A stretch of 64,000 nt of DNA. Source: Hyphomonas chukchiensis. Its GTDB lineage: Bacteria; Pseudomonadota; Alphaproteobacteria; Caulobacterales; Hyphomonadaceae. Both the position numbers and the translations under genes were made by a program. The stretch covers positions 1 through 64,000 of the forward strand of contig NZ_AWFG01000017.1 of assembly GCF_000682695.1 (NCBI RefSeq). Direction: 5' to 3'. Shown here one piece after another: positions 1,633 to 34,716 of this stretch (the first letter of the stretch is position 1; each line of letters starts with the position of its first letter). The notes under the pieces are model-generated. The model saw only the letters and a list, made by a program, of their open reading frames with translations, searched no databases and was not told the origin of the DNA.

Positions 1633-1645
1633 AATGGAGATCCGT

Positions 1646-12936: not shown

Positions 12937-13028
12937 GCGCGTATCCGGCCTCACCACAATGGCAAATGTCTTGGCGGCCCACGGATGAGTAATTTTTGAA
13001 TCTGGAATTGACGCCAGAAAGGGAAAAC

Positions 13029-14146: not shown

Positions 14147-15187
14147 ATGCAACAAAGAAGCTCACAATTCTTGACTGTCGGCTCTGCCCGAATTCACGCC
14201 GTGTGCGAAGGCGAAGGCCCACTAGTCATACTCGTTCACGGCTTTCCGGAGTCCTGGTATTCGTGGCGCCACCAGCTTTCAGCTTTAGCCGAGGCCGGTT
14301 ACCAGGCCGTTGCCATTGATCTAAGAGGCTATGGGCGATCATCCAAATTCTTGGACTCCGAATATTATCTGATCAAGTCTGTTGTCGAGGACATCGTGGG
14401 TGTGGTCAGGGCGTTAGGTGCCTCAAGTGCCGTTGTCGTTGGGCATGACTGGGGGGCAATGATTGCCTGGACAGCGGCCTGGTTGCATCCTGAAATCTTC
14501 CGTGGCGTTGTGGGGCTTGCAATTCCTTTCTCTGGGCGCGGGCTAATTGCTCTGCCTGGCTCTCCTTTCGGTGAACGCTCTCCAGAAGATATTCATAAAG
14601 AATTGGCTGGACCAGACCAACAATTCTATCAGGACTATTTTGGTTCGCTGGCACCGGCCATACGGGAATTCGAAGAAGATTCGGGTGGTTGGATACGTGA
14701 CGTTCTGTGGGCCTTTTCAGGCGAGAGTATGAAGGCTGCGGGTTTTTCTGGCCTTTTGGACTTACCGCAAGTGGACATCATACGTGCGAGCGCCCTTAGT
14801 ATACCGTTTGGTGCTCGAATGCGGGACAAAATGCATGCGCCCGCCGATCTTCCGGTCTGGTTGAGAACGGATGATTTGGAGTTCTATACGCAGGAGTTCG
14901 AGCGGTCAGGAATGATAGGGCCTTTTTCCTATTATCGAAGTATTCAAAACAGTTGGGAGCAGCTTGAGTCACATGACGGCACTCAGCTTCGCCCACCTGC
15001 GATGTTTATTGGAGGAGAGTGCGATGTCACGACAGGATGGGGACTAGAGGCAATTGATCGTGTAGGCGAGTTCGTTCCGAATTATGTCGGGTCACACATT
15101 CTGTCCGGATGCGGTCATTGGATCCAACAAGAACGGCCTGAGGAAGTAAATGAATTGGTTTTGGGATTCATGAGAGAGCTTGTTTGA
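14147..15187 (+). CDS. Alpha/beta hydrolase, epoxide-hydrolase type
   Basis: A 346-residue alpha/beta hydrolase with the HGFPESWYSW loop (31-40), DLRGYGRSS (59-66) and nucleophile elbow VGHDWGA. The nucleophile is therefore Asp101, as in soluble epoxide hydrolases and haloalkane dehalogenases, not serine. The general base is probably His324 in GCGHW. HGxP and the WG after the nucleophile favour epoxide hydrolase over dehalogenase. No such step is needed in the standard dioxygenase pathway, so it may clear arene oxides or act on a side-chain epoxide such as styrene-oxide-like compounds (inference). A 134-bp gap separates it from the upstream oxidoreductase. Confidence 0.85.
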   Translation: MQQRSSQFLTVGSARIHAVCEGEGPLVILVHGFPESWYSWRHQLSALAEAGYQAVAIDLRGYGRSSKFLDSEYYLIKSVVEDIVGVVRALGASSAVVVGHDWGAMIAWTAAWLHPEIFRGVVGLAIPFSGRGLIALPGSPFGERSPEDIHKELAGPDQQFYQDYFGSLAPAIREFEEDSGGWIRDVLWAFSGESMKAAGFSGLLDLPQVDIIRASALSIPFGARMRDKMHAPADLPVWLRTDDLEFYTQEFERSGMIGPFSYYRSIQNSWEQLESHDGTQLRPPAMFIGGECDVTTGWGLEAIDRVGEFVPNYVGSHILSGCGHWIQQERPEEVNELVLGFMRELV

Positions 15188-15404: not shown

Positions 15405-15427
15405 AGGTGAGGAAGAGGCTATCAATC

Positions 15428-16165
15428 ATGTCCACGGGTGAAATGTTCCAGCGTCGGACGGAAACTGAGTCCGAATCAGACGGGCCTCGGAGCCTGATTG
15501 AGTCGACTTACGAGCAGTTGAGTCTCGATATTGTACACGGCAAGTATGGGCCGGGTGACAAGCTGCGACTTCAGCCACTAAGTGAAAATTATGGAGTGAG
15601 TGTTGGCACTGTGAGGGAGTCGTTATCTCTCCTCGTGTCGGATGGGCTCGTCCTTACTCAATCCCAAAAAGGTTTTCGAGTGGCGCCGATGTCGCTTGTT
15701 GATTTCGAGGATTTGACCAAGGCGCGGGTCCTGCTGGAAGCATCAGCGTTGCGGGATAGTATCGTATCCGGGAAAGATGACTGGGAAGGTCGGGTTGTCC
15801 AAGCATATCACCAACTGTCCCTTGCGGAGAAAAGGCTCGAAGCTAATCCAATCGCAGGATTCGAGATATGGGAGCAGCGCAATCAGGAATTTCATGATGC
15901 GCTCGTATCGGCTTCTTCCTCTCGCTGGGTGCAGAAGTTCCGAGTTATTCTCTACAAGCAAGCGGAACGCTACCGGCGGTTGTCTACAGCCAGTCGAGTA
16001 AGCCCTGGCGTGTTGGCTCATTCTGAACACGAGAAGATTTTCGAGTTGGCCATTGCGCGTGACGCCGATGCGGCGGTTGAGGCGCTATCTTTTCATATTT
16101 GGTCAGCCGTAGAATTCTTGAAGGGGCGTGGTCTGATTTTGGAAAGTCCGGACAAGGAAGGCTAA
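15428..16165 (+). CDS. GntR-family regulator (FadR/FCD subfamily), BphS-like position
   Basis: A 245-residue regulator with an N-terminal winged helix (LIESTYEQLSLDIVHGKYGP, then LSENYGVSVGTVRESLSLLV) and an all-helical FCD effector domain (about residues 95-235; the HSEHEKIFELAIARD region supplies metal/ligand histidines typical of FCD). ATG 15428 is preceded by a purine-rich GAGGAAGAGG about 10 nt upstream; TTG/GTG-type extensions lack this. In some biphenyl degraders (KKS102, Tn4371) the regulator BphS, also GntR family, sits directly before the dioxygenase genes as here. So it is probably a repressor released by a pathway intermediate (inference). Confidence 0.9.
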   Translation: MSTGEMFQRRTETESESDGPRSLIESTYEQLSLDIVHGKYGPGDKLRLQPLSENYGVSVGTVRESLSLLVSDGLVLTQSQKGFRVAPMSLVDFEDLTKARVLLEASALRDSIVSGKDDWEGRVVQAYHQLSLAEKRLEANPIAGFEIWEQRNQEFHDALVSASSSRWVQKFRVILYKQAERYRRLSTASRVSPGVLAHSEHEKIFELAIARDADAAVEALSFHIWSAVEFLKGRGLILESPDKEG

Positions 16166-16189: not shown

Positions 16190-17614
<1,425 letters not shown>

Positions 17615-17728
17615 GGAGGTCTGTGAGCGGATCACCCGTTTCGTAGGCAGAGCGAAGTGCGCTCAACCGATAGTTCTATTAACCCTCGCGAATAACGGGC
17701 GCATAAATCGCGCAAATTGGAGATAATT

Positions 17729-18626
<898 letters not shown>

Positions 18627-18627
<1 letters not shown>

Positions 18628-19856
18628 TGCAGAGTTTCGCGATCATAGGTGCGGGTCTGGCGGGGGCGACAGCGTGTCGGTCGCTCAGAGACCAGGGGTT
18701 TGAGGGAAAGATTTTCCTCTTTGGCGACGAGCCGTATGAGCCATATGATCGACCCTCTTTGTCCAAGTCTGCTTTAGCGACCAAATCTGCCCCCCCTTTG
18801 TTAATGGGTTGTAATTGGAGCGAAGAATTCAGGGTCGAGAAATGTCTGGGAGTTCGCGTTGAAACAATAGACTTGCCCTCGATGCGTATTGAGGTGAGCT
18901 CTGGCTCGGACCTCAAGTTTGACAAGCTCCTTTTTGCCACTGGGTCTCGGGCGCGGTCTCTGCGTCTAGATGCGCATAGCGAGACGCCGGGACTTTACTC
19001 ACTGCGGACACTTGACGATTGCGTGGCTCTACAGGGAGCAATCTCCCCTGGGGCACAAGTCATCATCATCGGGGGAGGCCTCATTGGATGTGAGCTTGCC
19101 ACTACAATTCAGAAGATGGGTGCAAAGGCGATTATCCTTGAGACTGCCAATGAGCTCTTGTTGCGTGTTCTGGGCAAGACAATAGGCTCGTGGTGTCGAG
19201 AGGAATTGGAGGCCATAGGGGTTGAAGTCCACACGGGCGTCTCAATTACTCATGTAGATCTAGACCCCTCGTTCCGGGAAGTACGATGCGGCGACGGAAG
19301 AAGATTTTCTGGTGATCTGGCAATCGTCAGCGTTGGTGCGGAGCCGGTCACCGCTTTAGCAGAGCATGCTGGATTGGCGTGCGCGAGGGGCATCATTGTA
19401 AATTCAGTTGGTATGGCTTCAAGCGACACGGTGTACGCAGCGGGCGATGTCGCAAGTTGGCCTCTCAGGAGCGGAGGGCGCCGCAGTCTGGAGACTTATC
19501 TGAATTCTCAAAACCAGGCGGCTGTGGCTGCGGGAGCAATGCTCGGAAAGGGTGAGCCAGCACCGCAAGTTCCGATTTCTTGGACGGAGATAGCGGGGCA
19601 TCGGATACAGATGATGGGCGAAGTCACTGGTCCTGGCGATGTCGTCACTCGGGTTGATCCCGGAGGGACCGGAATGACGGTGTGTCGATTGAATGGTGGG
19701 GAGCTTCAATCTGTTGTTTCAATAAACCAGCCGGCAGATTTTTCTTTCGCATCAAAAATCATTGAACGGAGGATGCAGGTAGATGCGAAATCAATTCGTG
19801 ATCCACTCATTCGTATGAAAGACGTTTTCAAATTGGCGGCAAAGACGGTCGCGTGA
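18627..19856 (+). CDS. bphA4: Ferredoxin--NAD(+) reductase component of the dioxygenase
   Basis: FAD enzyme passing electrons from NADH to the ferredoxin. The 409 residues match BphA4 (about 408). The FAD-binding GAGLAG is at 8-13, the NAD-binding GGGLIG at 149-154, and the second FAD motif at VYAAGDVASWP. DEPYEPYDRPSLSK near residue 35-47 is the typical substrate-side motif of this reductase group. The start ATG at 18627 overlaps the ferredoxin stop (TGATG); an in-frame TTG at 18624 is less likely. Confidence 0.94.
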
Positions 19857-19907: not shown

Positions 19908-20786
19908 ATGAGCGTTAAGAAGTTGGGATATCTGGGTTTTTCTGCATCAAACATTGATGCGTGGCGGGATTACGCAACCGGAACGTTAGGGCTAATGGAT
20001 GCTGGGACGAGAAATGACACTCTCTTTCTGAGAATGGATTCTCGAAATTGGCGGGTTGCAGTCCATCCAGGTGCGGCAGATGATCTTTTGTATGCGGGGT
20101 TCGAAGCTTCGAATCGAGCCGAGATGCTTGAGATCGCTGAAAGACTAAAGGAAATGGGTATCTCCGTCGAGCAGGCCGATTCCAAGCTGTTGGCGCAACG
20201 GGGAGTGATTGATTTGGTATCCTGCCTTGATCCGTCAGGGATCAAGATTGAGGTGTATTATGGTGCCAGCGAACTCTACGAAGAGCCGTTTATTTCGCCT
20301 ACGGGTGTATCTGGATTTCTAACTCAGGATCAGGGACTTGGGCACTATGTCCTGAGTGTTGAAGATATTGAACGTTCTTTGGATTTCTACATCCGTGGAC
20401 TGGGAATGGAGCTATCCGACATCATCGACTGGCAGGTCAATCCGGACGTGAAGCTTCAGGTGAACTTTCTCCATTGCAACAGGCGCCATCATAGCCTGGC
20501 ATTAATCCAAGCGCCCGCCTCCAAGAAGTTACACCACTTTATGCTGGAAGTAAGCTCGTTCGATGATGTCGGGCGCGCATATGATCGCGTGTCAGAGAAG
20601 AATGAGATCGTGATGACGCTCGGTCGGCACACAAATGACCACATGTATTCGTTCTACGGCGTCACGCCTTCCGGCTTTGCTGTCGAGTATGGATGGGGCG
20701 CTCGACCCATCGAGTCAGATTGGTCTGTCGTCCGATATGACAGCATCAGCATGTGGGGACATAAGTTTATGGGCACAGGAGCTTGA
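19908..20786 (+). CDS. bphC: Type I extradiol catechol dioxygenase (2,3-dihydroxybiphenyl 1,2-dioxygenase type)
   Basis: Cleaves the substituted catechol next to its hydroxyls using Fe(II). The 292-residue, two-domain vicinal-oxygen-chelate protein has its iron ligands exactly at the positions known for LB400 BphC: His146 (GLGHYVL), His210 (KLHHFMLE) and Glu260 (FAVEYGW). Active-site His195, His241 and Tyr250 are also kept. A GGGAGAAG ribosome site precedes ATG 19908. The gap from the reductase gene is only 51 bases. The side-chain pocket cannot be read well enough to fix the substrate. Confidence 0.95.
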   Translation: MSVKKLGYLGFSASNIDAWRDYATGTLGLMDAGTRNDTLFLRMDSRNWRVAVHPGAADDLLYAGFEASNRAEMLEIAERLKEMGISVEQADSKLLAQRGVIDLVSCLDPSGIKIEVYYGASELYEEPFISPTGVSGFLTQDQGLGHYVLSVEDIERSLDFYIRGLGMELSDIIDWQVNPDVKLQVNFLHCNRRHHSLALIQAPASKKLHHFMLEVSSFDDVGRAYDRVSEKNEIVMTLGRHTNDHMYSFYGVTPSGFAVEYGWGARPIESDWSVVRYDSISMWGHKFMGTGA

Positions 20787-20852: not shown

Positions 20853-21707
20853 ATGGCCATTCAGATCGTATCTGAAGATACCAACCCAGAGATCGCACGT
20901 AACATTGAAGTTCACGGTGTAAAGACGAACTATCATGATCTCGGCGCTGGGAAACCGCTCTTTCTGATTCACGGATCAGGGCCGGGGGTTTCAGCTTGGG
21001 CAAACTGGCGATTGGCAATGCCAAATTTTAGTGAGGTGGCCAGAGTAATTGCTCCTGATATGCTCGGGTTCGGATATTCGGAACGTCCGGGAAAAGACTA
21101 CTATAATATGGAAAGTTGGCTCGACCAGGTTGTTGGGTTGATGGACGCTCTTGATATTGAACGGACCGATCTCGTAGGCAATTCCTTCGGGGGTGCGATT
21201 TCTCTTGCGATGGCCATTCGACACCCGGATAGAGTTCGGCGCATTGTTCTGATGGGAAGCGCGGGTTTGGCGTTGGGGCTGAGTGAGGGACTTGACCAGG
21301 TTTGGGGGTATTCTCCATCCATTGAAAATATGCGCCGTTTGCTGGATATCTTTGCATATGATCGAAGTTTGGTAACGGATGAGCTTGCTGAACTACGGTA
21401 CAAAGCAAGCATTCGTCCGGGTTTTCAGGAGTCATTCTCAGCGATGTTTCCTGCGCCTCGGGGGAGATGGCTGGAGCACTTGGCAAGTGATGAACGCGAT
21501 ATCCAGAAAATTCCTCATGAGGTTCTGGTTATTCATGGGCGTGAAGACGTGGTTGTGCCGCTGGAAAATGGCCTGCGGCTGTCGCAGTTAATCAAGAGGT
21601 CTCAGTTGCATGTCTTTGGAGAGTGCGGGCATTGGGCGCAAATTGAACATGCTGCGAGATTTGAAAAACTCGTCATGAATTTCATTCAGGAGGCGGAAGA
21701 AAAATAG
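20853..21707 (+). CDS. bphD: Meta-cleavage-product hydrolase (BphD/TodF/CumD type)
   Basis: Carbon-carbon hydrolase that splits the ring-fission product into 2-hydroxypenta-2,4-dienoate and a carboxylic acid whose size depends on the original side chain. The 284-residue alpha/beta hydrolase has the oxyanion loop HGSGPGVSAWANW, nucleophile Ser111 (VGNSFGGA), acid Asp232 (HGREDVVVP) and base His260 (ECGHWAQIE), a complete triad. It starts 66 bases after the extradiol dioxygenase stop behind AGGAGA. Last recognised step of the upper operon; its products feed the hydratase at the left end and the PrpE-type ligase. Confidence 0.93.
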   Translation: MAIQIVSEDTNPEIARNIEVHGVKTNYHDLGAGKPLFLIHGSGPGVSAWANWRLAMPNFSEVARVIAPDMLGFGYSERPGKDYYNMESWLDQVVGLMDALDIERTDLVGNSFGGAISLAMAIRHPDRVRRIVLMGSAGLALGLSEGLDQVWGYSPSIENMRRLLDIFAYDRSLVTDELAELRYKASIRPGFQESFSAMFPAPRGRWLEHLASDERDIQKIPHEVLVIHGREDVVVPLENGLRLSQLIKRSQLHVFGECGHWAQIEHAARFEKLVMNFIQEAEEK

Positions 21708-22786: not shown

Positions 22787-23027
22787 CAGAATCAGTATGC
22801 GGATAAAGAAGGGGCTGGAGCAACCTCTATTGTTTGAATTCAATCGATAGAAAAGAGACGTTGATAAAGCTCAACCATTGACGGGATCTGACGAAAGTGA
22901 TCCGGCAAGTGCTTTAGCTATCTTACAATGGTGACGCGCTTACCGATCAAATCTTGGGCTCTTGTACGTATCTAAACAAATCAAAATGGATTTCTCGTGG
23001 CCCAGTACCTCGGTAGATGGCGTGCAC
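22787..23027. other. Spacer before the decayed insertion sequence
   Basis: No gene, repeat or strong promoter is visible. The stretch is A/T-richer than the chromosome to the right and probably belongs to the island. Confidence 0.4.
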
Positions 23028-23232
23028 ATGAATTCCTTTAATGGATCGCTCCGGGATGAACGCCAACGGGTTCGTTTCCTTGACCGTAGCAATACAGCTA
23101 CTTGAGACGTCGAGAATGGACTACAGTGAGAGGAGACCTCATACGGCTCACAATGGGCAATCTCCTGCCGAGTTTGCCCGCAACGTCGGCCTGTGCCATG
23201 CTGGCAAGGCCAAAATCGCTGCTGGATTTTAA
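23028..23232 (+). pseudogene. IS3-family transposase (OrfB) C-terminal remnant, frameshifted
   Basis: Two frames carry pieces of one IS3-type integrase-core C-terminus. From 23031 one frame reads NSFNGSLRDE. After a frame change near 23055-23062 the other reads MNANGFVSL, then MDYSERRPHTAHNGQSPAEF, to a stop at 23230-23232. In working IS3 OrfB proteins these segments are continuous (ESFNGxLRDECLNxxWF, then WRxDYNxxRPHxALGxxTPxEF). The glutamate expected before SFNG is Asn here and a few codons are missing, so the fragment is dead. The rest of the element is absent. It marks past transposition at the island edge. Confidence 0.75.
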
Positions 23233-23316
23233 CACCAAGGCCGGACTACCAGAGCCAAGCACTTCATCGCTGCTGTATTTTAGCACCACGACTGGGCCAC
23301 CAGAGCCAGGCATTTC
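23215..23316 (+). repeat. 51-bp imperfect tandem repeat at the end of the IS remnant
   Basis: Two adjacent copies (about 23215-23265 and 23266-23316) both begin ATCGCTGCTG and continue through ATTTTA.CACCA, CCAGAGCCA and CA.TTC. They differ at scattered positions. A diverged third stretch (about 23317-23370, with TGGACCAGTCCGATTGG) may be the terminal inverted repeat of the lost IS3 element (inference). Confidence 0.6.
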
Positions 23317-23419: not shown

Positions 23420-23520
23420 CGGTTTACACGTGGTGCCAACGAGCCTTGTTTTTAATACGGAAAACCTGATGCGGTTTACAGAGAACTCCATGTAAAATAA
23501 GAAAAAGTGCGTCGTTTACA
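23420..23520 (+). repeat. Three direct copies of a GTTTACA motif leading into the att site
   Basis: TGCGGTTTACA occurs at 23418-23428 and again at 23470-23480. A related TGCGTCGTTTACA ends at 23520, inside the tRNA anticodon loop. Regular short repeats beside a tRNA scar could be integrase-binding sites of the island (inference). Chance is possible for a 7-mer. Confidence 0.35.
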
Positions 23521-23559
23521 CCGAGAGGGTCAGCGGTTCGAGCCCGTTACCGCCCACCA
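23512..23559 (+). other. 3' half of a tRNA-Val(UAC) gene: island attachment-site scar
   Basis: Reads as a tRNA from mid-anticodon stem to the end: anticodon loop TTTACAC (23515-23521, anticodon TAC), 3' stem strand CGAGA (23522-23526), variable loop GGGTC, T stem AGCGG/CCGTT enclosing TTCGAGC (23532-23548), acceptor strand ACCGCCC (23549-23555), discriminator A and encoded CCA (23557-23559). Only three base pairs of the anticodon stem form; upstream, the D arm and 5' acceptor strand (expected GGGCGGT) are absent. A 3' fragment of this kind is what tyrosine-recombinase islands leave at the end distal to the intact tRNA. Its plus orientation places the island to the left. Confidence 0.82.
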
Positions 23560-24033
23560 GTATCTGCTGCAGATTGCAGCTCGTTTCCTGTCTCATCTCA
23601 AACGCCTTTGCCAGCGCCCTTAACAGGGTTCGGCTTGGTTCTGTTCCGGCTTTCGGAAGAATGTCGTGAACGCCGCAGTGCCGTGAACCGCGTTGCCCGG
23701 TCACGCGCCTTTGCGACAATGGGCGGCCCTTGCTTGCGTGCGCAATTACTGGGCCCGATCAGGATACGGACATCTCCGGCAGGTGAATTTGCCCCCGCAG
23801 CTATCAGCCCCGGCATCCGCTTTCTTGACGACAGCTTTCATGGAGCAGCGCGAATTGGATGGATTCACGCAGACCGTATTGCTGACCAATGCCCCCAAGT
23901 CCGCTGCTGTGGAATAGCGCGTTAAAAAAATTCATTATCACAAGAGTGAAGATTATTGACAGCGTGAGCGATTTGTTCTCCAACGGTGTCTGAAAAGCGC
24001 GACAAGCCGCTTTCACCAAGGGAGGATAATCCA
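23560..24033. other. Spacer between the att scar and the TonB receptor gene
   Basis: No convincing gene on either strand. It opens with a small hairpin, GCTGCA (23566-23571) and TGCAGC (23575-23580) around GAT, placed like a tRNA terminator but without a clear T-run. TTGACA at 23956-23961 is a plausible -35 for the receptor gene, with no good -10. Confidence 0.45.
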
Positions 24034-26310
24034 ATGACTCTACGTTCCATGGCGTCCGTATATGCGATTTCTATCGCTATTCTGGGAGCGCCCGCTTTTG
24101 CCCAACAGGTATCGCCCGCTGATGAGGCGACGAGCGATTCGACCGTCGACGAGGCGCGTCAGGATACCATCATCGTGACCGCGACCCGGCGGGAGCAGAG
24201 CCTGCAGGACGTGCCGCTGGCCGTCACGGCTTTCCAGCAGGAAGCGATGTCTGAAAAAGGCATCGTCAGCTATGACGGTCTTGCCCGCGAAACGCCAGGC
24301 ATCGTCCTGAACCAGCCGACCGCCAACTTCAACACAATCACCACGCGCGGTATCGCCACCAATGGTTACGGCGCCAACCTGCAGGCCGCGACCGCGATTT
24401 ATATCAACGAGCTTCCGATCTCCTCGAACGGCAACTCGACCATTCTCGACCCGACCCTGTTCGACGTGGAGCGGGTGGAAGTGCTGCGCGGGCCGCAGGG
24501 CACGCTGTTCGGCGCCAACTCGCTGTCCGGCGCCGTGCGCATCCTCACCAAGAAGCCCAACCCGAACAAGTTCGAAGCGTCCACGCTGGTCGATTTTGGC
24601 CTGACGGATGGTGATGCCCTTCGTCAGCGCTACAACGGCATGGTCAACGTACCACTCGTATCCGACGAACTGGCGCTGCGTGTCGTTGGCTTCTACCGCG
24701 ATGAGGATGGATGGGTCGACAACCTTGGCACCGGCATTAAAGGCGCGAACTCACTGAAAGCGGTCGGTGGCCGCGCGCACCTGCTGTGGGAGCCGACCAG
24801 CAAATTCGACATCGGCTTGCTCATTATCCGCGAGGACAACGAACCCGCAGATTCGAGCCTCACCAACCCTGACCGGGGCGATTTCATTCGCTATACGGAC
24901 CGTCCTGACCTCTTCCAGTCCGACATGACCAGCTACAACCTGACAGCCAACTGGGACATGGACTTCGCGACCCTCACTACTTCCTCGAACTACTCCAAGA
25001 TCGACGGGAAGTTCATCGTCGACCTGGCGGGCACGTTCGGCGGGGGCATTCCCTTCGCGCTCGATGCGGTCGGCCATGATGAAAACTTCGTGCAGGAAGT
25101 GCGACTGTCTTCCGCGGATGGCGGAAACTGGGACTGGATCGTCGGCGGGTTCTACTTCAACAAGCGCCGCGACATCGACTATGATTACCGCTCCTCGCAG
25201 GAATTCCTCGACACGCGCGGCCTGACGGGCCTGCCCGATGAGTATTACTATCGTTTCAAAGGGTATTTCGACGCCATCGAATCGGCTGCCTTTGGTGAGC
25301 TTACCTACCACTTCTCCGACAAGCTGTGGGCGACCGGCGGCCTGCGCTATACCGAGACATCGGTGCAGTCCCATACGCTTGGTGGCGGCTACAACTCCAA
25401 CTATCTGACCGCCGCGCTCCTTGGCTTTACGAACACGGCCCTGACGGTCACGCCGGTGGTCGCAGCGGACGGTCTCAAGGTTGAAGCCGACAACGTGTCC
25501 TACAAGGGTAGCCTCTCCTACAAGCCGATGGACAATCTGACGACCTATGCGTCGGTTTCGACGGGCTTCCGCTCGCCGGTGGCAAACGCCCGTGCCGGTC
25601 TTGCCAGCGGTGTGGACCCGAACGACATCATCATCCCGAACGGGGCGGATTCGGATAAGCTCACCAGCTATGAAGTCGGCATGAAGGGCGCCTTCTTCGA
25701 TCGCAAGCTGACCGCGAATCTCGCCGCCTACTACATCAACTGGGAAGACATCCAGGTTCAGGCCAACCGCCTGTCCGACCAGGCGCAGTTCGCGACCAAT
25801 ATCGGCAAGGCCGTCAGCCAGGGCATCGAATTCGAGCTTGGCTATTATCCCGGCAATGGCTTCAGCATTTTCGCGAACGGCTCGCTCAGCGACACTGAGA
25901 TCACGGACCTGACCGATGAGGAAGCCGCGATCTCAGGGGCGGAAGAGGGTCTGCAACTCGCCATGCCTGACTTCCAGGGTGCCCTCACGGCTCGCTACGA
26001 TTTCACGATCAGCGACAAGGACGCCTTCGTGACCGCAACGGCCGCCTATGTCGGTGACTTCCCGGCCATGCTGCCGAACGTGCCCGGTCAACCGGGCGTT
26101 CCGGCCGCGACCTTCGACTACACTGATGCATATACTGTCGTGAATGCGCAGGCGGGTATCTCGAAGGACGACTGGAAGGTGATTGCCTATGTCGAAAACC
26201 TGTTTGACGACAAATCCATCACCTACGTCCATCCGGAAGGCTTCCTCGACAGCCGCTATGCCCGTTTGCGGCCGCTCACTGTTGGTGTGCGCCTCAGCTA
26301 CGAATACTGA
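24034..26310 (+). CDS. TonB-dependent outer-membrane receptor
   Basis: A 758-residue receptor. The signal peptide (LRSMASVYAISIAILGAPAFA) is followed by a TonB-box-like IIVTATRREQSLQDVPLAV, typical of the large alphaproteobacterial receptor set, then the plug (about 60-170; VERVEVLRGPQGTLFGANSL) and a beta-barrel ending in RLRPLTVGVRLSYEY with a terminal aromatic. ATG 24034 follows GGGAGGA by 8 nt; an upstream frame from 23986 lacks such a site. As the first gene right of the tRNA scar it leads an esterase/ligase/esterase series, so it probably imports an ester-containing or hydrophobic nutrient rather than iron (inference). Confidence 0.93.
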   Translation: MTLRSMASVYAISIAILGAPAFAQQVSPADEATSDSTVDEARQDTIIVTATRREQSLQDVPLAVTAFQQEAMSEKGIVSYDGLARETPGIVLNQPTANFNTITTRGIATNGYGANLQAATAIYINELPISSNGNSTILDPTLFDVERVEVLRGPQGTLFGANSLSGAVRILTKKPNPNKFEASTLVDFGLTDGDALRQRYNGMVNVPLVSDELALRVVGFYRDEDGWVDNLGTGIKGANSLKAVGGRAHLLWEPTSKFDIGLLIIREDNEPADSSLTNPDRGDFIRYTDRPDLFQSDMTSYNLTANWDMDFATLTTSSNYSKIDGKFIVDLAGTFGGGIPFALDAVGHDENFVQEVRLSSADGGNWDWIVGGFYFNKRRDIDYDYRSSQEFLDTRGLTGLPDEYYYRFKGYFDAIESAAFGELTYHFSDKLWATGGLRYTETSVQSHTLGGGYNSNYLTAALLGFTNTALTVTPVVAADGLKVEADNVSYKGSLSYKPMDNLTTYASVSTGFRSPVANARAGLASGVDPNDIIIPNGADSDKLTSYEVGMKGAFFDRKLTANLAAYYINWEDIQVQANRLSDQAQFATNIGKAVSQGIEFELGYYPGNGFSIFANGSLSDTEITDLTDEEAAISGAEEGLQLAMPDFQGALTARYDFTISDKDAFVTATAAYVGDFPAMLPNVPGQPGVPAATFDYTDAYTVVNAQAGISKDDWKVIAYVENLFDDKSITYVHPEGFLDSRYARLRPLTVGVRLSYEY

Positions 26311-26331
26311 TCCGTTTGGGGGAGAGACGTC

Positions 26332-28035
26332 ATGCCGAGATCGAACAGGTCGTCGACTGAGGCGACAAGCGTAAGACATTTTGGGGCGGTGCTTGCGCTA
26401 TTGTTCGTATCGGCCGCGTCTCTTTTGACGGCAGCATGCGCAAGCGGATCTGCTGAGCCGGCCGGGAGCGTTGCCCTTGCAAACGCTCCTGTCGGTGCCA
26501 TTCGCGGAACGACAGAGGACGGTGTGTCGGTCTATCGTGGCATCCCCTACGCTCTGGCACCCACGGGAGAGCGTCGCTGGGCGCCGCCCGTGGCGGTTCC
26601 GGACTGGGCGGAACAGCGCGAGGCCTTGGCGTTCGGGCCGGCGTGTCCTCAGCCGGAATCACGACCCGGTAGCATATATTCAACGGAGCTGGGCCCCGTT
26701 TCCGAAGACTGTCTAAGCCTGAATGTCTGGGCACCGGAAGATGCCAGCAATGCCCCCGTATTTGTCTGGATTCATGGCGGATCGCTGACAACCGGCGCGG
26801 GCAGCCAGGACATGTATGATGGCGCCAGAATGGCGCGCGAACAGGGCCTGGTCGTGGTCACGCTCAATTACCGTTTGGGTATTCTGGGCTATCTTGCACA
26901 TCCCGGCTTGAGCGCTGAGTCCGCGCAGGGCATTTCAGGTAATTATGGCCTGATGGACCAGACGCTGGCGCTCGAATGGGTGAAGCGTAATATCGGCGCA
27001 TTCGGCGGCAATCCGGATAATGTCACGGTGGCCGGCGAATCTGCAGGTGCGCTCAGCGTTGTCCTGCTCATGACTTCGCCGAAGGCGAAGGGCCTGTTCG
27101 ACAAGGCCATTGCGCAAAGTGCGTACATGGTGACCATGGCTGCGTTGAAGGAAACCGCCAATGGCCTTCCGTCGGCGGAGTCTACAGGCGCCGAACTTGC
27201 GAAACGCATGGGCGCCTCAGACATCAAGGACCTTCGCGCGATGTCGGCAAAAGACCTTGTGTACAAGTCTGCGAAAGCTGGCTTCTTTCCGTTTGCCGTG
27301 ATCGATGACGTTTACCTGACCGACCAGATGGTCGCGACTTTTGACAAGGGCGAACAGGCTCCTGTCCCCGTTTTGGCTGGCTTCAATGAAGGCGAGATCC
27401 GCTCCTTGCGGTTCCTCTTGCCGCCGGCGCCAAAGCCTGATGCCTACGAGCCAGCCATCCGAAAGGGGTATGCTGATCTCGCCGAAGCATTCCTCGAAAT
27501 CTATCCTGCTGACAGCCTGGATTCGAGCATGCTCGCAACAACCCGCGACGCAATGTATGGATGGTCTGCAGAACGTCTTGTGGCCTCGCAGAGTGCCTTT
27601 GGGTATCCGTCATACTTCTATTTGTTTGACCATGGTTACCCGGCAGCCGACCGCGCCGGACTCCACGCATTCCACGCGTCGGAAATTCCCTACATGTTCG
27701 GAACGACCTCCGAGGCCGTCGCGCCATGGCCCGAAATACCGGATACGGAAGAAGAGAATGGCCTGTCGAAAGCGATGATGGCGTATTGGGCGAGCTTCGC
27801 TCGCGACGGCCGTCCTGCCGCGCAAGGCAGCGCGGCGTGGCCGGCCTACGAAGACAAGGCCACTGGCATGGTCTTCGCTGACGAGCCGCAACCGTGGCCC
27901 ATGCTTTCCCGAAACCGCTTTGACCTGCATGAGGAAGTGGTGTGCCGCAGGCGCGCTGCAGGCAATATTCCATGGAACTGGAATGTTGGAATCCTCTCTC
28001 CCCCTTTGCCGCCTAAGGATTCAAAATGCCAATGA
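26332..28035 (+). CDS. Type B carboxylesterase, lipoprotein
   Basis: A 567-residue carboxylesterase with a lipoprotein signal (LLTAAC, lipidated Cys36), so membrane-anchored in the envelope. The core has YRGIPYA, SEDCLSLNVW, oxyanion HGG (148-150), nucleophile Ser237 in VAGESAGA, and a catalytic His in LHAFHASEIPYMFG. It starts 21 bases after the receptor stop behind a GGGGGAGAG purine tract, and its end overlaps the acyl-CoA ligase start by 10 bases. It cleaves carboxylic esters; the substrate is unknown. It is a clear paralogue of the esterase at 29636 (shared ISGNYGL, ALEWV, GESAGALS, TSPKA.GLF). Confidence 0.92.
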   Translation: MPRSNRSSTEATSVRHFGAVLALLFVSAASLLTAACASGSAEPAGSVALANAPVGAIRGTTEDGVSVYRGIPYALAPTGERRWAPPVAVPDWAEQREALAFGPACPQPESRPGSIYSTELGPVSEDCLSLNVWAPEDASNAPVFVWIHGGSLTTGAGSQDMYDGARMAREQGLVVVTLNYRLGILGYLAHPGLSAESAQGISGNYGLMDQTLALEWVKRNIGAFGGNPDNVTVAGESAGALSVVLLMTSPKAKGLFDKAIAQSAYMVTMAALKETANGLPSAESTGAELAKRMGASDIKDLRAMSAKDLVYKSAKAGFFPFAVIDDVYLTDQMVATFDKGEQAPVPVLAGFNEGEIRSLRFLLPPAPKPDAYEPAIRKGYADLAEAFLEIYPADSLDSSMLATTRDAMYGWSAERLVASQSAFGYPSYFYLFDHGYPAADRAGLHAFHASEIPYMFGTTSEAVAPWPEIPDTEEENGLSKAMMAYWASFARDGRPAAQGSAAWPAYEDKATGMVFADEPQPWPMLSRNRFDLHEEVVCRRRAAGNIPWNWNVGILSPPLPPKDSKCQ

Positions 28036-29618
28036 TCGACGGTGCAATCCAGGATTATGCACTCACGCTCGACAAGTTTCTTGACCATGCCGCCAAATGG
28101 CATCCCCTGACAGAAGTTGTAACTGCACGCGCGGACGGCAGCATCGCCCGAGTTGGCTATGCCGGCTTGCGTAAGCGTGCCAAGCGCGTGACGGCCCTGC
28201 TTCATGACCTCGGCGTGAGGAAGGGCCACCGTGTCGCCACGCTTTCCTGGAACACACAGGCGCATATGGAGTGCTGGTACGCCGTGATGGGCATGGGCGC
28301 CGTGTGTCATACGCTCAATCCGCGCCTTACCAGCGAGCAGTTGGCCTGGATGCTTGGCCAGTCGGAAGCCGCGATACTGATTGTAAGCAGTGACTTGCAG
28401 CCACTGGCGGCAAGTATCGTTCAAAGCGCCCGCGGAATAAAAAATATCCTGGTGATCGACCACGCTGGGGGTGACGCGCTTGATGTCGTTGGTCTTCCGT
28501 ATGCCCAGGTTCTTGAAAATGCCCTCGTGGACGAGTCTGCCGATATTGCTTGGGGGGATTTTCCGGAAACGACACCGTGCGGCCTGTGTTTCACCTCCGG
28601 CACCACCGGTGCCCCGAAAGGCGTGACATATACACATCGCGGAAACTACCTTCACACCTTGCGTCAGTTACAGGCGGACGTGTCCGGCATGACGTCACAT
28701 GATGTTGTCCTGCCGGTCGTGCCGATGTTCCACGCCAATGCCTGGGGCCTGCCGTTTTCCGCCCCTGCGACCGGCGCAAAGCTGGTTCTTCCGGGGCGTC
28801 ATTCGGATGGCGAAAGCCTTGCTAATCTCATTGCGAATGAGGGGGTCACGATCGCGGTTGGGGTCCCGACCATCTGGACTGGGCTGATGGATTATCTCGA
28901 TGCGAAAGGCATGGATCTGCCTTCGCTGAACCGCATCATGGTAGGGGGCGCGCCGATGCATCCTGCATTGATGAAGCGGATCGAGGACCGCGGCATCTGC
29001 GTGCAAACGACATGGGGCATGACCGAGCTGTCGCCGCTTGGAACCGCTGCGCCGCCGGGCGACGAACGCTCGCCGGAAACAGCTGGCCGGCCGGCTGTGG
29101 GGCTCGACCTCATGGTGACCGATCATGCCGGGGAGCCTCTCGACATTCAGCGTGGTCAGGAGGGGCGCCTCTGGGTCCGGGGTACGTCCGTCGTCTCGCG
29201 CTATTTTGGGCAGACTGAAAGTGCCACAAAAAATGGATGGTTCGACACGGGCGACCTCGCCGTTCTCAGCGAGGGCGGCCAGGTATTCATTACCGGCCGT
29301 TCCAAGGATCTTATCAAGTCTGGCGGTGAGTGGATCAATCCGGCCGAGATCGAGACGCTCGTGTCACGGCTGCCCGAAGTGGCGCTTGCAGCCGTCGTCG
29401 GACGCGCGCATCCAAAATGGGGCGAGCGACCTGTCCTTATGGTCGAAATCAGGGAAGGATGCGAACTTACAGATGAAGCGCTTCTTGCCAGTCTGCGCGG
29501 CAAGGTGCCGAATTGGTGGCTGCCTGACGAAATCATTCGTCTCGGTTCCATGCCGCTTGCTGGTACCGGCAAGATAGACAAGCACAGCCTGCGTGACATG
29601 TGCGTCACATCGGCATGA
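28026..29618 (+). CDS. Acyl-CoA synthetase (medium-/long-chain fatty acid or aryl acid CoA ligase)
   Basis: A 530-residue ANL-superfamily ligase. It has the P-loop FTSGTTGAPKGV, the WGMTELSPLGT motif, WFDTGDLA, the hinge [12 protein letters not shown] and the catalytic lysine in GTGKIDKHSL. DWG/SGGEWI features and overall form are close to AlkK-type medium-chain ligases. The start overlaps the upstream esterase by 10 bases, implying translational coupling; it probably activates the acid released by that esterase. A paralogue lies at 52465. Confidence 0.92.
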   Translation: MPMIDGAIQDYALTLDKFLDHAAKWHPLTEVVTARADGSIARVGYAGLRKRAKRVTALLHDLGVRKGHRVATLSWNTQAHMECWYAVMGMGAVCHTLNPRLTSEQLAWMLGQSEAAILIVSSDLQPLAASIVQSARGIKNILVIDHAGGDALDVVGLPYAQVLENALVDESADIAWGDFPETTPCGLCFTSGTTGAPKGVTYTHRGNYLHTLRQLQADVSGMTSHDVVLPVVPMFHANAWGLPFSAPATGAKLVLPGRHSDGESLANLIANEGVTIAVGVPTIWTGLMDYLDAKGMDLPSLNRIMVGGAPMHPALMKRIEDRGICVQTTWGMTELSPLGTAAPPGDERSPETAGRPAVGLDLMVTDHAGEPLDIQRGQEGRLWVRGTSVVSRYFGQTESATKNGWFDTGDLAVLSEGGQVFITGRSKDLIKSGGEWINPAEIETLVSRLPEVALAAVVGRAHPKWGERPVLMVEIREGCELTDEALLASLRGKVPNWWLPDEIIRLGSMPLAGTGKIDKHSLRDMCVTSA

Positions 29619-29635
29619 AACCATGGAGGCGTGTC

Positions 29636-31270
29636 ATGACGGCCGATTTGAAAACATTGGCAGTGATCGCGCTGATTGCAGTTTCAGGATGCGTCCGATC
29701 CGATAATGCACATCCTGTCGCGGATGTTGCTGCCGACCCGACTGTCGATCTGAGGCAGGGGCAGCTTGTCGGCGTGCGGGAAGGAGACCTGGAGGTCTTT
29801 CGCGGCATTCCCTATGCAGGGGCGCCAATCGGGGATCTGCGCTGGAAAGCACCCTCGCCGCCGCCAGACTGGTCTGGTGTGCTGGATGCCACCGCTTTCG
29901 GCCCAAGCTGCATTCAGCCCCCCGTGCCCGAGCGCAGCCTCTATTATGACCCGCCGCATCAGACATCCGAAGACTGCCTGACCCTCAACATCTGGACGCA
30001 AAGCCGCTCTGCCAAAACACCGGTCGTTGTGTGGATACACGGCGGATCGCTGCGCATCGGGGGCAGCGCCCAGTCTATGTATGACGGATCGGAATTTGCG
30101 GGCAGGGGCGTTGTGTTTGTTTCCCTCAACTATCGTCTGGGAGCGCTTGGCTGGCTAGCGCATCCGGAGCTGAACGCTGAATCGCCCGACGGCATTTCCG
30201 GCAATTACGGGTTGCTTGATGAGGTCGCGGCGCTCGAATGGGTCAGAGACAACATATCTGCCTTCGGCGGCGATCCCGCCAATGTCACCGTGATGGGGGA
30301 ATCCGCCGGGGCGCTCAGCCTGACTTATCTTCTGACAAGTCCAAAGGCGGAAGGTCTTTTTCAGAAAGCCATTATCGAGAGCCCCAATAGCCGGAATTTC
30401 CCGGAGCTCGGTCAGGCTGCCTATGGCGCACGGCCGGCAGAGGAAATCGGCGCATCAACGCTAAGCGCAATGGGGTTCGCCAGTATCGAGGCCGCCCGCG
30501 AAGCGTCAGCGCAGGACATCACCGACAAGGCAGGCCAGGCGGGATTCATACCGCAGGGGACGATTGATGGCGACGTCCTTCCGTCCCAGATCGTGGATTC
30601 GTTCGACAAGGGTGCATTTGCAAAAGTGCCAGTGCTTGCCGGGTTCAATAGCGGTGAAGTGCGCTCCCAGCGCCTGTTCCTGCCGCGCAAGCCGGATGAC
30701 TATGAAGCGGCAATCGTGGAGCGGTATGGCGCGCTTTCGAGTGGTGTCCTCGCTCTCTATCCGGGGTCCGATGTAGACGCTTCCATGCTGGCCACGCTGC
30801 GCGACGCGATCTACGGCTGGGCGACCGAGCGGATCGTGCGCAAGCTGACAGAGGCGGATCAGCCAGCCTTTATGTACGTCTTCGATTATTGCTACCCGAG
30901 TGCCGAGAAGGCTGATCTCTGCGCGTTCCACGCGAGTGAATTGCCGTTTGTTTTTGGCGCTCTTGATCCGGATAAGCTGTCCCCCAACTGGCCGGTTCCT
31001 GACGGCGAGCATGACCAAACCATATCCAGCACCCTGCTCGACTACTGGACCTCCTTTGCTGCAACGGGGCAGCCTGAAAGCGCTACGGGCCCGGCATGGC
31101 CCGCTTATGGCGGCGATCAGGCTTACCTGAAGATCGGTCAGGAACTGGAAGTCGGTAAAAATCCCATGCCGGGCATGTTCGAATTGCATGAAGAGCTGGT
31201 GCGTCAGCGCAAGGCTGCCGGCGAGCCGTGGTTCCTCAATATCGGTCTTGGCGCGCCGCCATTGGAATAG
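29636..31270 (+). CDS. Second type B carboxylesterase, lipoprotein
   Basis: A 544-residue paralogue of the esterase at 26332, with lipobox AVSGC in LIAVSGCVRSD. It shares FRGIPYAGAP, SEDCLTLNIW, HGGSL, nucleophile serine in VMGESAGALS and CAFHASELPFVFG with the catalytic histidine. ATG 29636 is preceded by GGAGG at 6 nt; an ATG-type extension from 29600 overlaps the ligase gene and has no ribosome site. It lies 17 bases after the ligase stop and ends the plus-strand operon; the FG-GAP gene converges from the right only 13 bases away. Confidence 0.92.
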   Translation: MTADLKTLAVIALIAVSGCVRSDNAHPVADVAADPTVDLRQGQLVGVREGDLEVFRGIPYAGAPIGDLRWKAPSPPPDWSGVLDATAFGPSCIQPPVPERSLYYDPPHQTSEDCLTLNIWTQSRSAKTPVVVWIHGGSLRIGGSAQSMYDGSEFAGRGVVFVSLNYRLGALGWLAHPELNAESPDGISGNYGLLDEVAALEWVRDNISAFGGDPANVTVMGESAGALSLTYLLTSPKAEGLFQKAIIESPNSRNFPELGQAAYGARPAEEIGASTLSAMGFASIEAAREASAQDITDKAGQAGFIPQGTIDGDVLPSQIVDSFDKGAFAKVPVLAGFNSGEVRSQRLFLPRKPDDYEAAIVERYGALSSGVLALYPGSDVDASMLATLRDAIYGWATERIVRKLTEADQPAFMYVFDYCYPSAEKADLCAFHASELPFVFGALDPDKLSPNWPVPDGEHDQTISSTLLDYWTSFAATGQPESATGPAWPAYGGDQAYLKIGQELEVGKNPMPGMFELHEELVRQRKAAGEPWFLNIGLGAPPLE

Positions 31271-31283
31271 GTTTGTCTAAGGG

Positions 31284-32885
31284 CTATTCGTGACCGACCT
31301 TGTTGGGCGGTGTGAATGTCATCTCCGTCTCGTACGTGTCGATCCAGTTCTCCGGTGGCAGCGGCAGGGCGCGACTGTCTTCGGAGCGGCCAGCGGTGAA
31401 GGCAGGCCTTGGCTCGGCCGTGCGCACTTGCTCCAGCCAGAAGACGCCATCGTAGATGCCGCTGTTCCCGCGGGTCGCAACCCAGTCGATATCGCCGTCC
31501 TGGTCCATGTCGACAGGAACGAAGACATCGTACATGCCGCGCACGCGCCGGGATATGTCGTGGCGCTCCCAGTGCTCACGGGCGTCTCCCGGATTTTCGA
31601 ACCAGGCGATCCGGCCCACGCTGGAAGCTGCCGTGACCTGCGGACTGTCTTCTTCGCGCGACGCATCGGTGTAGGCACCCCGTAATATATTGAGCCCCGA
31701 ATAACCGCCCGTGATGGCATCAAGGTCGCCGTCCCCGTCAATATCGGCGAGCCCAATGCCGGCTACGATGTCTGGCAATGTGTCGCCGATGCGGAAAAAG
31801 GTCCACGGCTCATCAAGCTGTTGAGGCTGCTTGAGCCAACCCAGCCCGGCCACGAGCGGGCTTCCCGCAACCGGCTGGGGTGTTTCGTGGACAGCGACAA
31901 CAAGATCCTTGCGTCCATCGCCGTCAAGGTCGGCAAAGGCAGACTGGAAAGCGCTTGATGCGCCGCGCCAGTCGTCAGGCACAGGCATTCCGGCTACGAT
32001 GGCAATCGGATGCGGCTTCACGGTGAAACCCGACTCCGTGCCATTGCCGACCGTTTCCAGAATCGCCATCTGAAGATCAAGGCGTGCGGCCACGAGCACG
32101 TCCGTATCGCCATCATCGTCAATGTCGGTCGGCATGGCCGTATTGGGTACCACTTCCCGTGACAGGACCTGCTCATGCCAACTCGATTGGACAAGGGCAT
32201 CCCCCTCTATCCGGAAGAGGGAAGTCGGGCGCGCGGCGGTGGCCAGAGATGGATCAATGATATCGGCGCCGCCCTTGTTGGCCGCGAGCACATCGAGGTG
32301 TCCGTCCTGGTCCATGTCAGCCATGAACACCCGCAGCCACGAACCCCGCCCTTGGGTGATCGCGGGGATCATCCGTGGCCATGTCTCTTGGCGCGCCAGC
32401 TTTCCCGGGTTCTGGAGGTAGAGGAGATGGGCCTCTTCGCAGGCGGCAACCAGATCAGGCCAGCCATCACCATTGATGTCACCGATCGCGACATCCTCTA
32501 TGGCACCAACCTCGTCGCCAGCGGCGACCGTGACATTCACCCATTTGTCGGGATCTCCTGTCCCAAACGCGATGCGCAGGTGATTGGAGTCTTCATGTAC
32601 TGACGCGATATCGAGGAACCCGTCGCCATCAAGGTCCGCGACAGCGAGACCGTCGCCGCCCCTTATGGCTGTCCCACCATTCGTCTGCTGATCATCGATC
32701 AGGTGCTCGCGCCAGGAAATGTAAAGGCCATCCTTCGTACGTGCATCGCTTGGCGTGTCGCCAACCGTCAGAGACGTTTTGTTTGGCGCGCCGGTCTCAG
32801 GGACCTGACAGCTGGCCATCACAAGCAGGGCCGAGGCCATGAGTATCGGCCGGGCGAACACAGTATTCAGCATTATCTGTTTCAT
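31284..32885 (-). CDS. FG-GAP/VCBS repeat beta-propeller lipoprotein
   Basis: A 533-residue lipoprotein (LLVMASC near residue 26) with seven calcium-type repeats: DLDGDGFLDIAS, DINGDGWPDLVA, DMDQDGHLDVLA, DIDDDGDTDVLV, DLDGDGRKDLVV, DIDGDGDLDAIT and DMDQDGDIDWVA. This fits a seven-bladed integrin-like propeller on the cell surface or in the periplasm. ATG 32885 overlaps the MFS stop (ATGA), so the two are coupled; a longer frame to 32945 would lie inside the MFS gene. It may bind the same polymer or ester substrate as the neighbouring esterases (inference). No catalytic motif is seen. Confidence 0.88.
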   Translation of the reverse strand: MKQIMLNTVFARPILMASALLVMASCQVPETGAPNKTSLTVGDTPSDARTKDGLYISWREHLIDDQQTNGGTAIRGGDGLAVADLDGDGFLDIASVHEDSNHLRIAFGTGDPDKWVNVTVAAGDEVGAIEDVAIGDINGDGWPDLVAACEEAHLLYLQNPGKLARQETWPRMIPAITQGRGSWLRVFMADMDQDGHLDVLAANKGGADIIDPSLATAARPTSLFRIEGDALVQSSWHEQVLSREVVPNTAMPTDIDDDGDTDVLVAARLDLQMAILETVGNGTESGFTVKPHPIAIVAGMPVPDDWRGASSAFQSAFADLDGDGRKDLVVAVHETPQPVAGSPLVAGLGWLKQPQQLDEPWTFFRIGDTLPDIVAGIGLADIDGDGDLDAITGGYSGLNILRGAYTDASREEDSPQVTAASSVGRIAWFENPGDAREHWERHDISRRVRGMYDVFVPVDMDQDGDIDWVATRGNSGIYDGVFWLEQVRTAEPRPAFTAGRSEDSRALPLPPENWIDTYETEMTFTPPNKVGHE

Positions 32886-34225
32886 GGGATCAGCCTCGCC
32901 ATGTCCTGGCGGATGTTTTTTGCGGCCAGCACATAATGGATACACGCCCAGAGGGATCCGATAACGCCACAGATCAGCATCGCGCTTGCCAGCGGCGTCT
33001 CGAAGCCGGCGCTGAGGAATTGGTCGCTAAGCGCGCCAACGATAAGTGGGCCAAGGCCGAGGCCGATAAGGTTCAGGATGAAGAAGAGGATGGCGGATGT
33101 GAGCGCCCTCATGCGAATGCTGACCAGGCTGTGGGACACCGCGATGACCGAGCCGAGATAGGCCGCGGTCAGGAAATTGAAGGGCGCGGTCAGGAGCAGG
33201 GCCGTTCGGGCTGATCCGGATGTCAAGGCAATGATCAGAACGGGCACGATCATGAACGTGAGTATGGCGGGAATCCAGAGATACCAACGTATGTCCCGCG
33301 CGCCGAAGCGGTCGGCCATCCAGCCGCCGAAGAAAGAGCCGAAAGCGCCTCCGAATCCGCTGGTCAGCGCCATCCATGTGCCCACAGTGCCGAGGCTGAT
33401 GTCGAAATTCCGGAGGAAGTAGGAGGGGAACCAGTTGCCGATGCCATAGATCAGGAAGGCTTGCAGGCTGGCCGCCATGGCAATGTGCCGGAAGGAAACG
33501 TGGCTCCAGAGAAGTTTTACGACGTCCTGCAGGGGGGGCGTGGCGGTTTGCGTTTGCTCAGCCCCCTCGGACCAGCCGCGAACAGGTTCGCGAACGGTCA
33601 GACGGAAGACGATGGCGAGCAGGATGCCTGGTGCGCCAACGACAAAGAAAGCCAGACGCCAGCCAAACGCTTCCGCGATGCGGCTGCCTAGCGCAAAACC
33701 GAAAAGGATGCCGATATAGATGCCGATTGAGTAGACGGACAAGGCGAGCGCCCGGTTCTTCGGTTTGAAAATGTCGGAGAGCATCGAGTGCGCTGGCGGA
33801 CTGCCACCAGCTTCACCTACGCCCACACCGACCCGCGCAATGAGCAGATAGGTAAAGCTTGTGGCAAGTCCGCATACGGCCGTCATGAGGCTCCAGACAG
33901 TCAGCGCCCACGAAATGATGTTTCGGCGAACACCCTTGTCGGCCCATCGGGCAATTGGAATGCCGCAAATGACGTAGAAGAGGGCGAATGCAAAGCCGGT
34001 CAGAAGGCCCAGTTGCGTATCTGTGAGACCGAGCTCTGCCTTGATGGGCTCCTGCAGGATTACGAGGAGCTGCCGGTCGATAAAGTTGAATGCGTAGATG
34101 ATCGTCAGCACAAACAGGACGTAGATACGGTACTTCTTGCTTTGGTAAGGTGTGCCCTGAGCTGTACCCTCCATATCGTGTCGAGTCGGAGCCAGCTCCG
34201 CCTGTGGGGTTGCATCTGATTTCAC
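32882..34225 (-). CDS. MFS transporter (spinster-like)
   Basis: A 447-residue twelve-helix permease. The N-terminal half has FNFIDRQLLVILQEPIKAEL, LGLLTGFAFALFYVICGIP, ARWADKGVRR (loop 2-3) and GVGEAGGSPPAHSMLSD, all typical of the spinster-like group common in Sphingomonadales and Hyphomonadaceae. It forms a two-gene operon with the FG-GAP lipoprotein (ATGA overlap) and is convergent with the esterase operon. Probably imports a product of the esterase reactions; the substrate is not deducible. Confidence 0.9.
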   Translation of the reverse strand: MKSDATPQAELAPTRHDMEGTAQGTPYQSKKYRIYVLFVLTIIYAFNFIDRQLLVILQEPIKAELGLTDTQLGLLTGFAFALFYVICGIPIARWADKGVRRNIISWALTVWSLMTAVCGLATSFTYLLIARVGVGVGEAGGSPPAHSMLSDIFKPKNRALALSVYSIGIYIGILFGFALGSRIAEAFGWRLAFFVVGAPGILLAIVFRLTVREPVRGWSEGAEQTQTATPPLQDVVKLLWSHVSFRHIAMAASLQAFLIYGIGNWFPSYFLRNFDISLGTVGTWMALTSGFGGAFGSFFGGWMADRFGARDIRWYLWIPAILTFMIVPVLIIALTSGSARTALLLTAPFNFLTAAYLGSVIAVSHSLVSIRMRALTSAILFFILNLIGLGLGPLIVGALSDQFLSAGFETPLASAMLICGVIGSLWACIHYVLAAKNIRQDMARLIP

Positions 34226-34716
34226 GTTTCACTCCCTGATGTTTCGTTCTCTTTTGGTGATATTCGAAGCGGGATCATCAGATCGCGCGCGGCTCACTCT
34301 TGTTTTATGTGTTTTGGAATGGTCGCACGCGCGCCCGGCTCTGGTCGGAGCAGGCATTGGGGCTCACCATCAGATTCATGATCATTGTCGGTGTGACAGC
34401 TGACCCTATATCTCCTTCCCGCCATGATATTCACTCAGGAGAGAGTGAAGTCAATTGAATCGTGAGGAATTCGCGAGTATGGGAATGAATGACCAATGCG
34501 ATGTGAGGCTACGCCGGGTGAAATGCCCGAAGTCGTCTGGGCTGTAGCGCCTTGGCTGTGTATAAGGCTCGGTTCTGCGCCGCGCTTCGCGCGACGCCAA
34601 AGGATTGAACAAGGAAGATGGAGAGTTGGTCAGGGATGATGCGTAATCATCTGCTCATGGACCAGCGGTTGACGTGAGTTGATCAGCCAACCTATCCTGA
34701 AAGAAAGGATGCCACG
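34226..34716. promoter_or_regulatory. Divergent promoter region between MFS and TetR genes
   Basis: No gene is visible in 491 bases. It must hold the promoters of the MFS/FG-GAP operon (minus) and tetR (plus). Near the right end GGTTG (34667-34671) and CAACC (34688-34692) form outer arms of a 26-bp imperfect inverted repeat, about 25 bases before the TetR start: a weak candidate for a TetR operator. A CGCGC/GCGCG hairpin near 34580-34595 has no T-run. Confidence 0.4.

Follow-up and report, generated by a model that had tools for sequence, protein, structure and literature searches.

A displaced 3′ fragment of tRNA-Val as the probable right end of an integrative and conjugative element carrying aromatic-degradation genes in Hyphomonas

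Introduction

Why should half of a tRNA gene stand at the edge of a cluster of aromatic-degradation genes? A first-pass annotation of the locus proposed that 48 bases, the 3′ part of a tRNA-Val gene, had been left behind at the right end of an integrated catabolic island, and predicted that an intact copy of the gene with a tyrosine integrase beside it would mark the other end. We analysed the 64,000-nucleotide window (positions 1-64000 of contig C17 in a 3.86-Mb draft genome of 106 contigs, labelled G000) together with the rest of its genome and related genomes. We assign a probability of about 0.93 to the reading that the 48 bases are attR of an integrative and conjugative element (ICE) inserted in the 3′ part of tRNA-Val(TAC). 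Judged by its sequence, the element is of a known kind, an ICE in a tRNA anticodon arm with an R7A-like backbone and aromatic cargo, and its ends are mapped precisely here.

Results

The fragment and its intact counterpart

23512..23559, + strand: putative attR, displaced 3′ part of tRNA-Val(TAC), 48/48 bases identical to the intact tRNA gene on contig C43

These bases correspond to the stretch from the anticodon stem to the CCA of a complete tRNA-Val gene with anticodon TAC, which ARAGORN called on contig C43 of the same genome; the exact identity bears out the original assignment. Since ARAGORN called 0 tRNA genes in the 64-kb window, 23512-23559 is a fragment. At our search threshold the repeat was found at two places in the genome, the window and C43:3536-3583 (minus strand, 0 mismatches), and outside it the C17 and C43 sequences are unlike each other on both sides; the chance expectation for an exact 48-mer is ~1e-22 if equal base frequencies are assumed. 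Pairing read by eye from the letters places the start of the repeat three pairs up the anticodon stem, with the two outer pairs lost, in agreement with the broken stem described in the first-pass annotation.

Of 37 same-genus genomes, 7 (G000, G003, G004, G014, G025, G031 and G036) match 40 or more of the 48 bases at a place apart from the intact tRNA, a count that leaves out G002 and G008, where contig ends or junctions truncate the copies, G006, in which the second copy is a nearly full tRNA, and G011, which has a 24-base match. Fragments of the same tRNA lie 12 kb from the intact gene in G036 (C1:3247001-3247040) and about 617 kb from it in G004 (C2:1308872-1308917), and may represent other elements or rearranged ends.

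The left end and the integrase

On C43, a gyrase-B-type gene, an FMN oxidoreductase gene, lon and an NmrA-like gene are followed by tRNA-Val, a Fic gene, a tyrosine integrase gene and, at the contig edge, the C-terminal part of trbI. The intact tRNA with the same 48 bases and its neighbouring integrase gene, both foreseen at the outset, are thus present on one contig. The position of lon within about 1 kb of tRNA-Val held in 13 of the 13 loci compared. The integrase (374 aa) has a Phage_integrase domain at 44.4 bits (cut-off 27.1), and lambda integrase can be aligned to its catalytic half over an Arg and an HxxR motif; Tyr360 and Trp348, read by position, are putative active-site residues. In all six genomes picked for having the fragment or the element, some 2 kb separate the integrase gene from the tRNA. 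Four copies share 98-100% identity with the G000 integrase, and near-identical integrases occur in records named Hyphomonas, Hyphomonadaceae and Henriciella, the copy in a Henriciella metagenome-assembled genome (MAG) being 98% identical.

The cargo next to the right end

Window 1-23559 carries the following genes, all cargo except the last entry; names rest on Pfam unless otherwise stated.

1..731, - strand: acetaldehyde dehydrogenase gene (AcetDehyd-dimer), cut by the contig edge
741..1613, - strand: 2-keto-4-pentenoate hydratase-like gene (NCBIfam 346.4 bits, cut-off 350)
1634..2401, + strand: IclR-type regulator
3083..3886, + strand: short-chain dehydrogenase (SDR)
3923..10874, + strand: YCF48-like, MMPL, 645-aa unknown and DUF1329 genes
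10987..12936, + strand: acyl-CoA ligase (AMP-binding; best NCBIfam match propionate--CoA ligase, below cut-off)
12996..14012, + strand: zinc alcohol dehydrogenase
14147..15187, + strand: alpha/beta hydrolase
15407..16165, + strand: GntR/FCD regulator
16211..19856, + strand: ring-hydroxylating dioxygenase (alpha, beta, ferredoxin, reductase)
19908..20786, + strand: BphC-like extradiol dioxygenase (NCBIfam TIGR03213, 392.8 bits, cut-off 366.45)
20853..21707, + strand: meta-cleavage hydrolase, HsaD/BphD-like (NCBIfam below cut-off)
22981..23266, + strand: probable insertion sequence (IS) remnant (rve_3-like at 23041-23229, 23.1 bits, below the cut-off of 26.5)

BphC was the sole protein to pass its NCBIfam cut-off among the 10 given (9 from the cargo); the dioxygenase alpha subunit and reductase came nearest to HcaE and HcaD, below cut-off, and the 645-aa protein (7469-9406, between the MMPL and DUF1329 genes) had no match in Pfam or NCBIfam. 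These assignments suggest a biphenyl- or phenylpropionate-like aromatic as substrate. An IS remnant left of the fragment, as first annotated, is likely in view of the weak rve_3 match, and stretches related to it occur in four genomes (G002, G014, G025 and G031).

A plasmid origin of the cargo was considered and set aside: window 1-23511 gave no megablast match in 72,556 plasmid records, and the integrase matched 11 of the same records, all at <60% identity.

A complete element and an empty site

A single contig of G025 carries both repeats, equally oriented: that of the intact tRNA at C4:78649-78696 and the fragment at C4:138411-138458. They enclose an element of 59,762 bp, repeat to repeat, which holds the counterpart of window 1-23559 against its right repeat, at identities of 99.5% (1-14152), 99.8% (14153-23288) and 98.9% (23281-23565); between the last two segments G025 has an additional 1 kb or so, which includes a DDE_3 transposase gene. 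The proposed arrangement of tRNA and fragment flanking the aromatic genes is thus seen directly in this genome. As for the claim that everything left of 23.56 kb is one integrated element, G025 supports its unity, but the element extends beyond the window.

Reading inward from the tRNA, the G025 element encodes Fic and the integrase (described above from C43, then located here), TrbI, CagX/TrbG-type, VirB8/TrbF-type and TrbL-type proteins, a TraG-type P-loop protein, TrbC, a TrbB-type ATPase, TraG, a DUF6932 protein, an HTH/M78 protein, a helicase-like protein, a DUF3363 relaxase, an S26 peptidase, a small HTH_17 protein, DUF736 and a RovC/DUF2285 protein. The hallmark genes of an ICE (relaxase, coupling protein and type IV secretion) are therefore all present. 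The trb/traG types matched were TrbI, TrbG-, TrbF-, TrbL-, TrbC-, TrbB- and VirB4/TraG-type; none of the frames scanned was recognised as TrbD or TrbJ. The relaxase matches DUF3363 at 370 bits and NCBIfam RlxS at 602.6 bits, below the cut-off of 850. Counterparts of traF, rdfS, DUF736 and DUF2285 were matched as Peptidase_S26, HTH_17, DUF736 and RovC_DNA-bd, the last of which we take to be DUF2285. A DmpG-like aldolase gene adjoins that for acetaldehyde dehydrogenase.

The right flank of the G025 element matches G003 directly behind the fragment and G019 directly behind the intact tRNA, and the two G025 flanks, joined without the element, align with G019 as one block, 6,135 bases long at 84%, that runs across its tRNA. 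As these alignments read, G025 and G019 differ by an insertion with rebuilding of the tRNA, a principle stated for genomic islands in the portion of the Islander paper drawn on here (PMC4383910). The predicted empty site in a relative therefore exists for the G025 flanks, but not for the window's own right flank: the site given is that of G025/G003, because window 23580-23921 matches nothing in 60 other genomes. In G031, ends of the same type are present, yet the 14 kb left of the fragment matches the window over no more than 145 bases; cargo therefore varies between elements.

The element in the window's own genome

Three pieces of the element were found in G000: the left end on C43, contig C58, of which 3,307 bases are 100% identical (rounded) to the G025 element, and the right part on C17. 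The only transfer gene joined to an end here is trbI, on C43. Contig C51 carries trb DNA with 95% identity to 1,727 bases of the G025 element; other trb-type sets, which vary in similarity, lie on C34, C44, C46, C49, C51 and C85. With several other trb sets in the genome the middle of the element cannot be placed, and their differing similarity indicates that the genome probably holds more than one conjugative element. Because the two ends lie on different contigs, we infer their pairing from G025 and from the sole two places found for the repeat: C43 and C17 would bound one element. The exact exchange point and the present mobility of the element we likewise infer.

A 33-base match of window 1-33 to C52 does not mark an overlap of contig ends. 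The length of C52 is 226,449 bases, and at the match it has a 95% paralogue of the aldehyde dehydrogenase and aldolase genes that overlaps the place where C17 starts, which may be why contig C17 breaks at that point.

The right flank

23560..37248: accessory stretch (TonB receptor, carboxylesterases, ligase, FG-GAP, MFS), with its first part at other places in G025 and G011
37249..64000: block that follows tRNA-Val in G011, starting 3.1 kb right of the intact tRNA
44924: TlyA-like gene
48840: chorismate synthase gene
50016: PdxH-like gene

The first-pass annotation placed A/T-richer sequence left of the fragment and G/C-rich sequence with aroC, pdxH and tlyA to its right. GC contents of 0.518 (1-23559), 0.599 (23560-37248) and 0.630 (37249-64000), and the genes listed above, agree with it. 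Its division into island on the left and chromosome on the right holds for the fragment as the island's end, but is too simple, because the right side begins with a further accessory stretch, 23560-37248. From the fragment to 23921, at most 20 bases next to the repeat were matched among the candidates scored (at most 9 per genome) from 60 other genomes. G002 has the flank from 23922 to at least 31730, and G011 and G025 have it from 23927 or 23931 onward, in each case away from tRNA-Val. From 37249 onward the window and G011 are collinear apart from gaps. The tlyA gene of this G011-type block is about 1.5 Mb away from tRNA-Val in both G018 and G019; gene order has therefore changed within the genus.

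A repeated anticodon-loop heptamer at both ends

23422..23428, + strand: GTTTACA copy, -90 from the repeat, candidate binding site
23474..23480, + strand: GTTTACA copy, -38 from the repeat, candidate binding site

The heptamer GTTTACA spans the anticodon loop, and the four extra copies at fixed places inside the two ends are in the anticodon-loop orientation. The 64-kb window has four copies (at 16603, 23422, 23474 and 23514); the 59.8-kb G025 element has eight, both strands counted, six of them within 150 bases of its ends. The -90 and -38 copies occur in seven of the eight right flanks read (G000, G025, G003, G031, two in G014 and one in G002), the -38 site in G031 and one G014 copy being GTTTAC, with the final A missing; G004, the eighth, has no GTTTACA copies. 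Similarity to the window in this region is no more than 75-83% for G031, G014 (C10) and G002 (C40). Several flanks in these counts are nearly identical and not independent. Left-hand copies stand at +45 and +57 in all six Hyphomonas-type left ends read, and the Henriciella left end has the same letters at these places. Across 3,000 dinucleotide-shuffled versions of the two flanks, each heptamer of the repeat was seen two times at most, versus the four observed; the test was post hoc, the heptamer having been noticed first, but was open to any heptamer of the repeat.

A misplaced junction

12682..12696, + strand: anticodon-arm-like site within the ligase gene, fused in G002 to the right inner end of the element

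On contig C58 of G002, the right inner end of the element (facing window 23517) passes via TCGTTT into the ligase gene at 12683 rather than into a tRNA. The site, ATCG-TTTTGAA-CGAT, has a four-base stem and a seven-base loop, like an anticodon arm. Simple insertion of a second element copy into the ligase gene is not favoured, because in G002 the 5′ half of the gene was found once (in the intact gene, on C49) and the 3′ half twice (on C49 and at the C58 junction). We prefer a tandem duplication through the integrase, which is the probable origin of the junction; a 6-base microhomology or a misassembly is also possible. Behind the junction the G002 sequence departs from the window into what looks, by eye, like two insertion sequences.

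Discussion

We propose that the integrase would recombine a 3′ copy of the tRNA on the circular element with the chromosomal tRNA gene at the anticodon arm. The element would supply the new 3′ half, leaving an unbroken tRNA at the left end (on C43), and the original 3′ half would be displaced to the right end, at 23512-23559.

How far this account extends to the right of the fragment depends on the accessory stretch. The fragment could instead be the junction between a newer element and the remains of an older one filling 23560-37248. That stretch has an intermediate GC content, and G011 lacks it between tRNA-Val and the conserved block. In G014 (C10, 613-1545) a fragment stands directly before the terminal part of a related integrase gene (65% across 110 residues), an arrangement that points to repeated use of tRNA-Val for insertion. 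Against such stacking, the family search of the genome gave no integrase match on C17, there is no second fragment on that contig, and the TonB block stands at other chromosomal places in G025 and G011; we consider stacked elements possible but doubtful. A different question is whether the element in this genome still has its transfer genes. A non-conjugative remnant that kept integrase and cargo and lost most transfer genes would agree with a left end that shows only part of trbI, the rest lying on unplaced contigs. Yet trbI is positioned as in G025, at a contig edge, and the likeness of C51 and the identity of C58 to the G025 element, the latter to its later part, argue against such loss, which we think unlikely.

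It could also be argued that the fragment has nothing to do with the aromatic genes and is a decayed or chance piece of tRNA, given that tRNA gene fragments can persist after an element is lost. The exact 48-base identity, the empty site and the fact that in G025 these two ends enclose the same genes make this very improbable, and for the shared element the exact repeat and the G025/G019 comparison rule it out. We therefore retain the reading of 23512-23559 as attR of an ICE.

The fixed GTTTACA copies inside both ends are possibly integrase binding sites, or could serve a helper protein instead; in either case the repeated anticodon-loop heptamer predicts where integrase or helper would bind. 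A bolder and, in our estimate, rather improbable idea is that the integrase reads the anticodon loop and its own arm sites through this one heptamer, copies of the target loop acting as docking sites, and that it once used the anticodon-arm-like site in the ligase gene of G002 by mistake. The arm and core sites of lambda integrase differ; if the idea were true, the element, unlike that system, would contain the loop of its target several times over.

For this 60-kb catabolic element of Hyphomonas, both boundaries are now fixed. Since several species have nearly the same aromatic part and the Henriciella MAG integrase is so similar, a recent spread of the aromatic-degradation pathway among Hyphomonas-type bacteria becomes directly testable. 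No title among the matches listed in a title-level literature search describes such an element in Hyphomonas, and a description in print is possible.

Among known systems, the closest likeness in backbone is to ICEs of the ICEMlSymR7A type. The sections of PMC8627217 used here give the Mesorhizobium ICE backbone as trb, traG, rlxS, traF, rdfS and DUF736, and those of PMC10359603 describe DUF2285 as a regulator domain of these ICEs. The present element would share with them trb and traG, an RlxS-like relaxase, an S26/TraF-like peptidase with an adjoining small HTH protein, DUF736 and DUF2285, and the 3′ part of a tRNA as insertion site. It differs in its target (tRNA-Val(TAC) rather than phe-tRNA), its size (about 60 kb versus 502 kb), its aromatic rather than symbiosis cargo, a relaxase below the RlxS cut-off and a single DUF2285 frame. 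Degradative ICEs of the Tn4371 and ICEclc families likewise combine a tyrosine integrase and type IV transfer genes with aromatic, partly biphenyl, cargo, and two Tn4371 members measure 59.4 and 61.8 kb in the part of PMC9960961 consulted; their targets, compared by the description there, are in contrast tRNA-Leu and tRNA-Gly. Finally, the intact tRNA gene, the displaced 3′ fragment and the integrase inside the element correspond to the anticodon-centred class A of Islander, which accounts for 2083 of 3919 islands. From that class we see no difference of substance; the repeated anticodon-loop heptamer goes unmentioned in the portion of PMC4383910 cited above.
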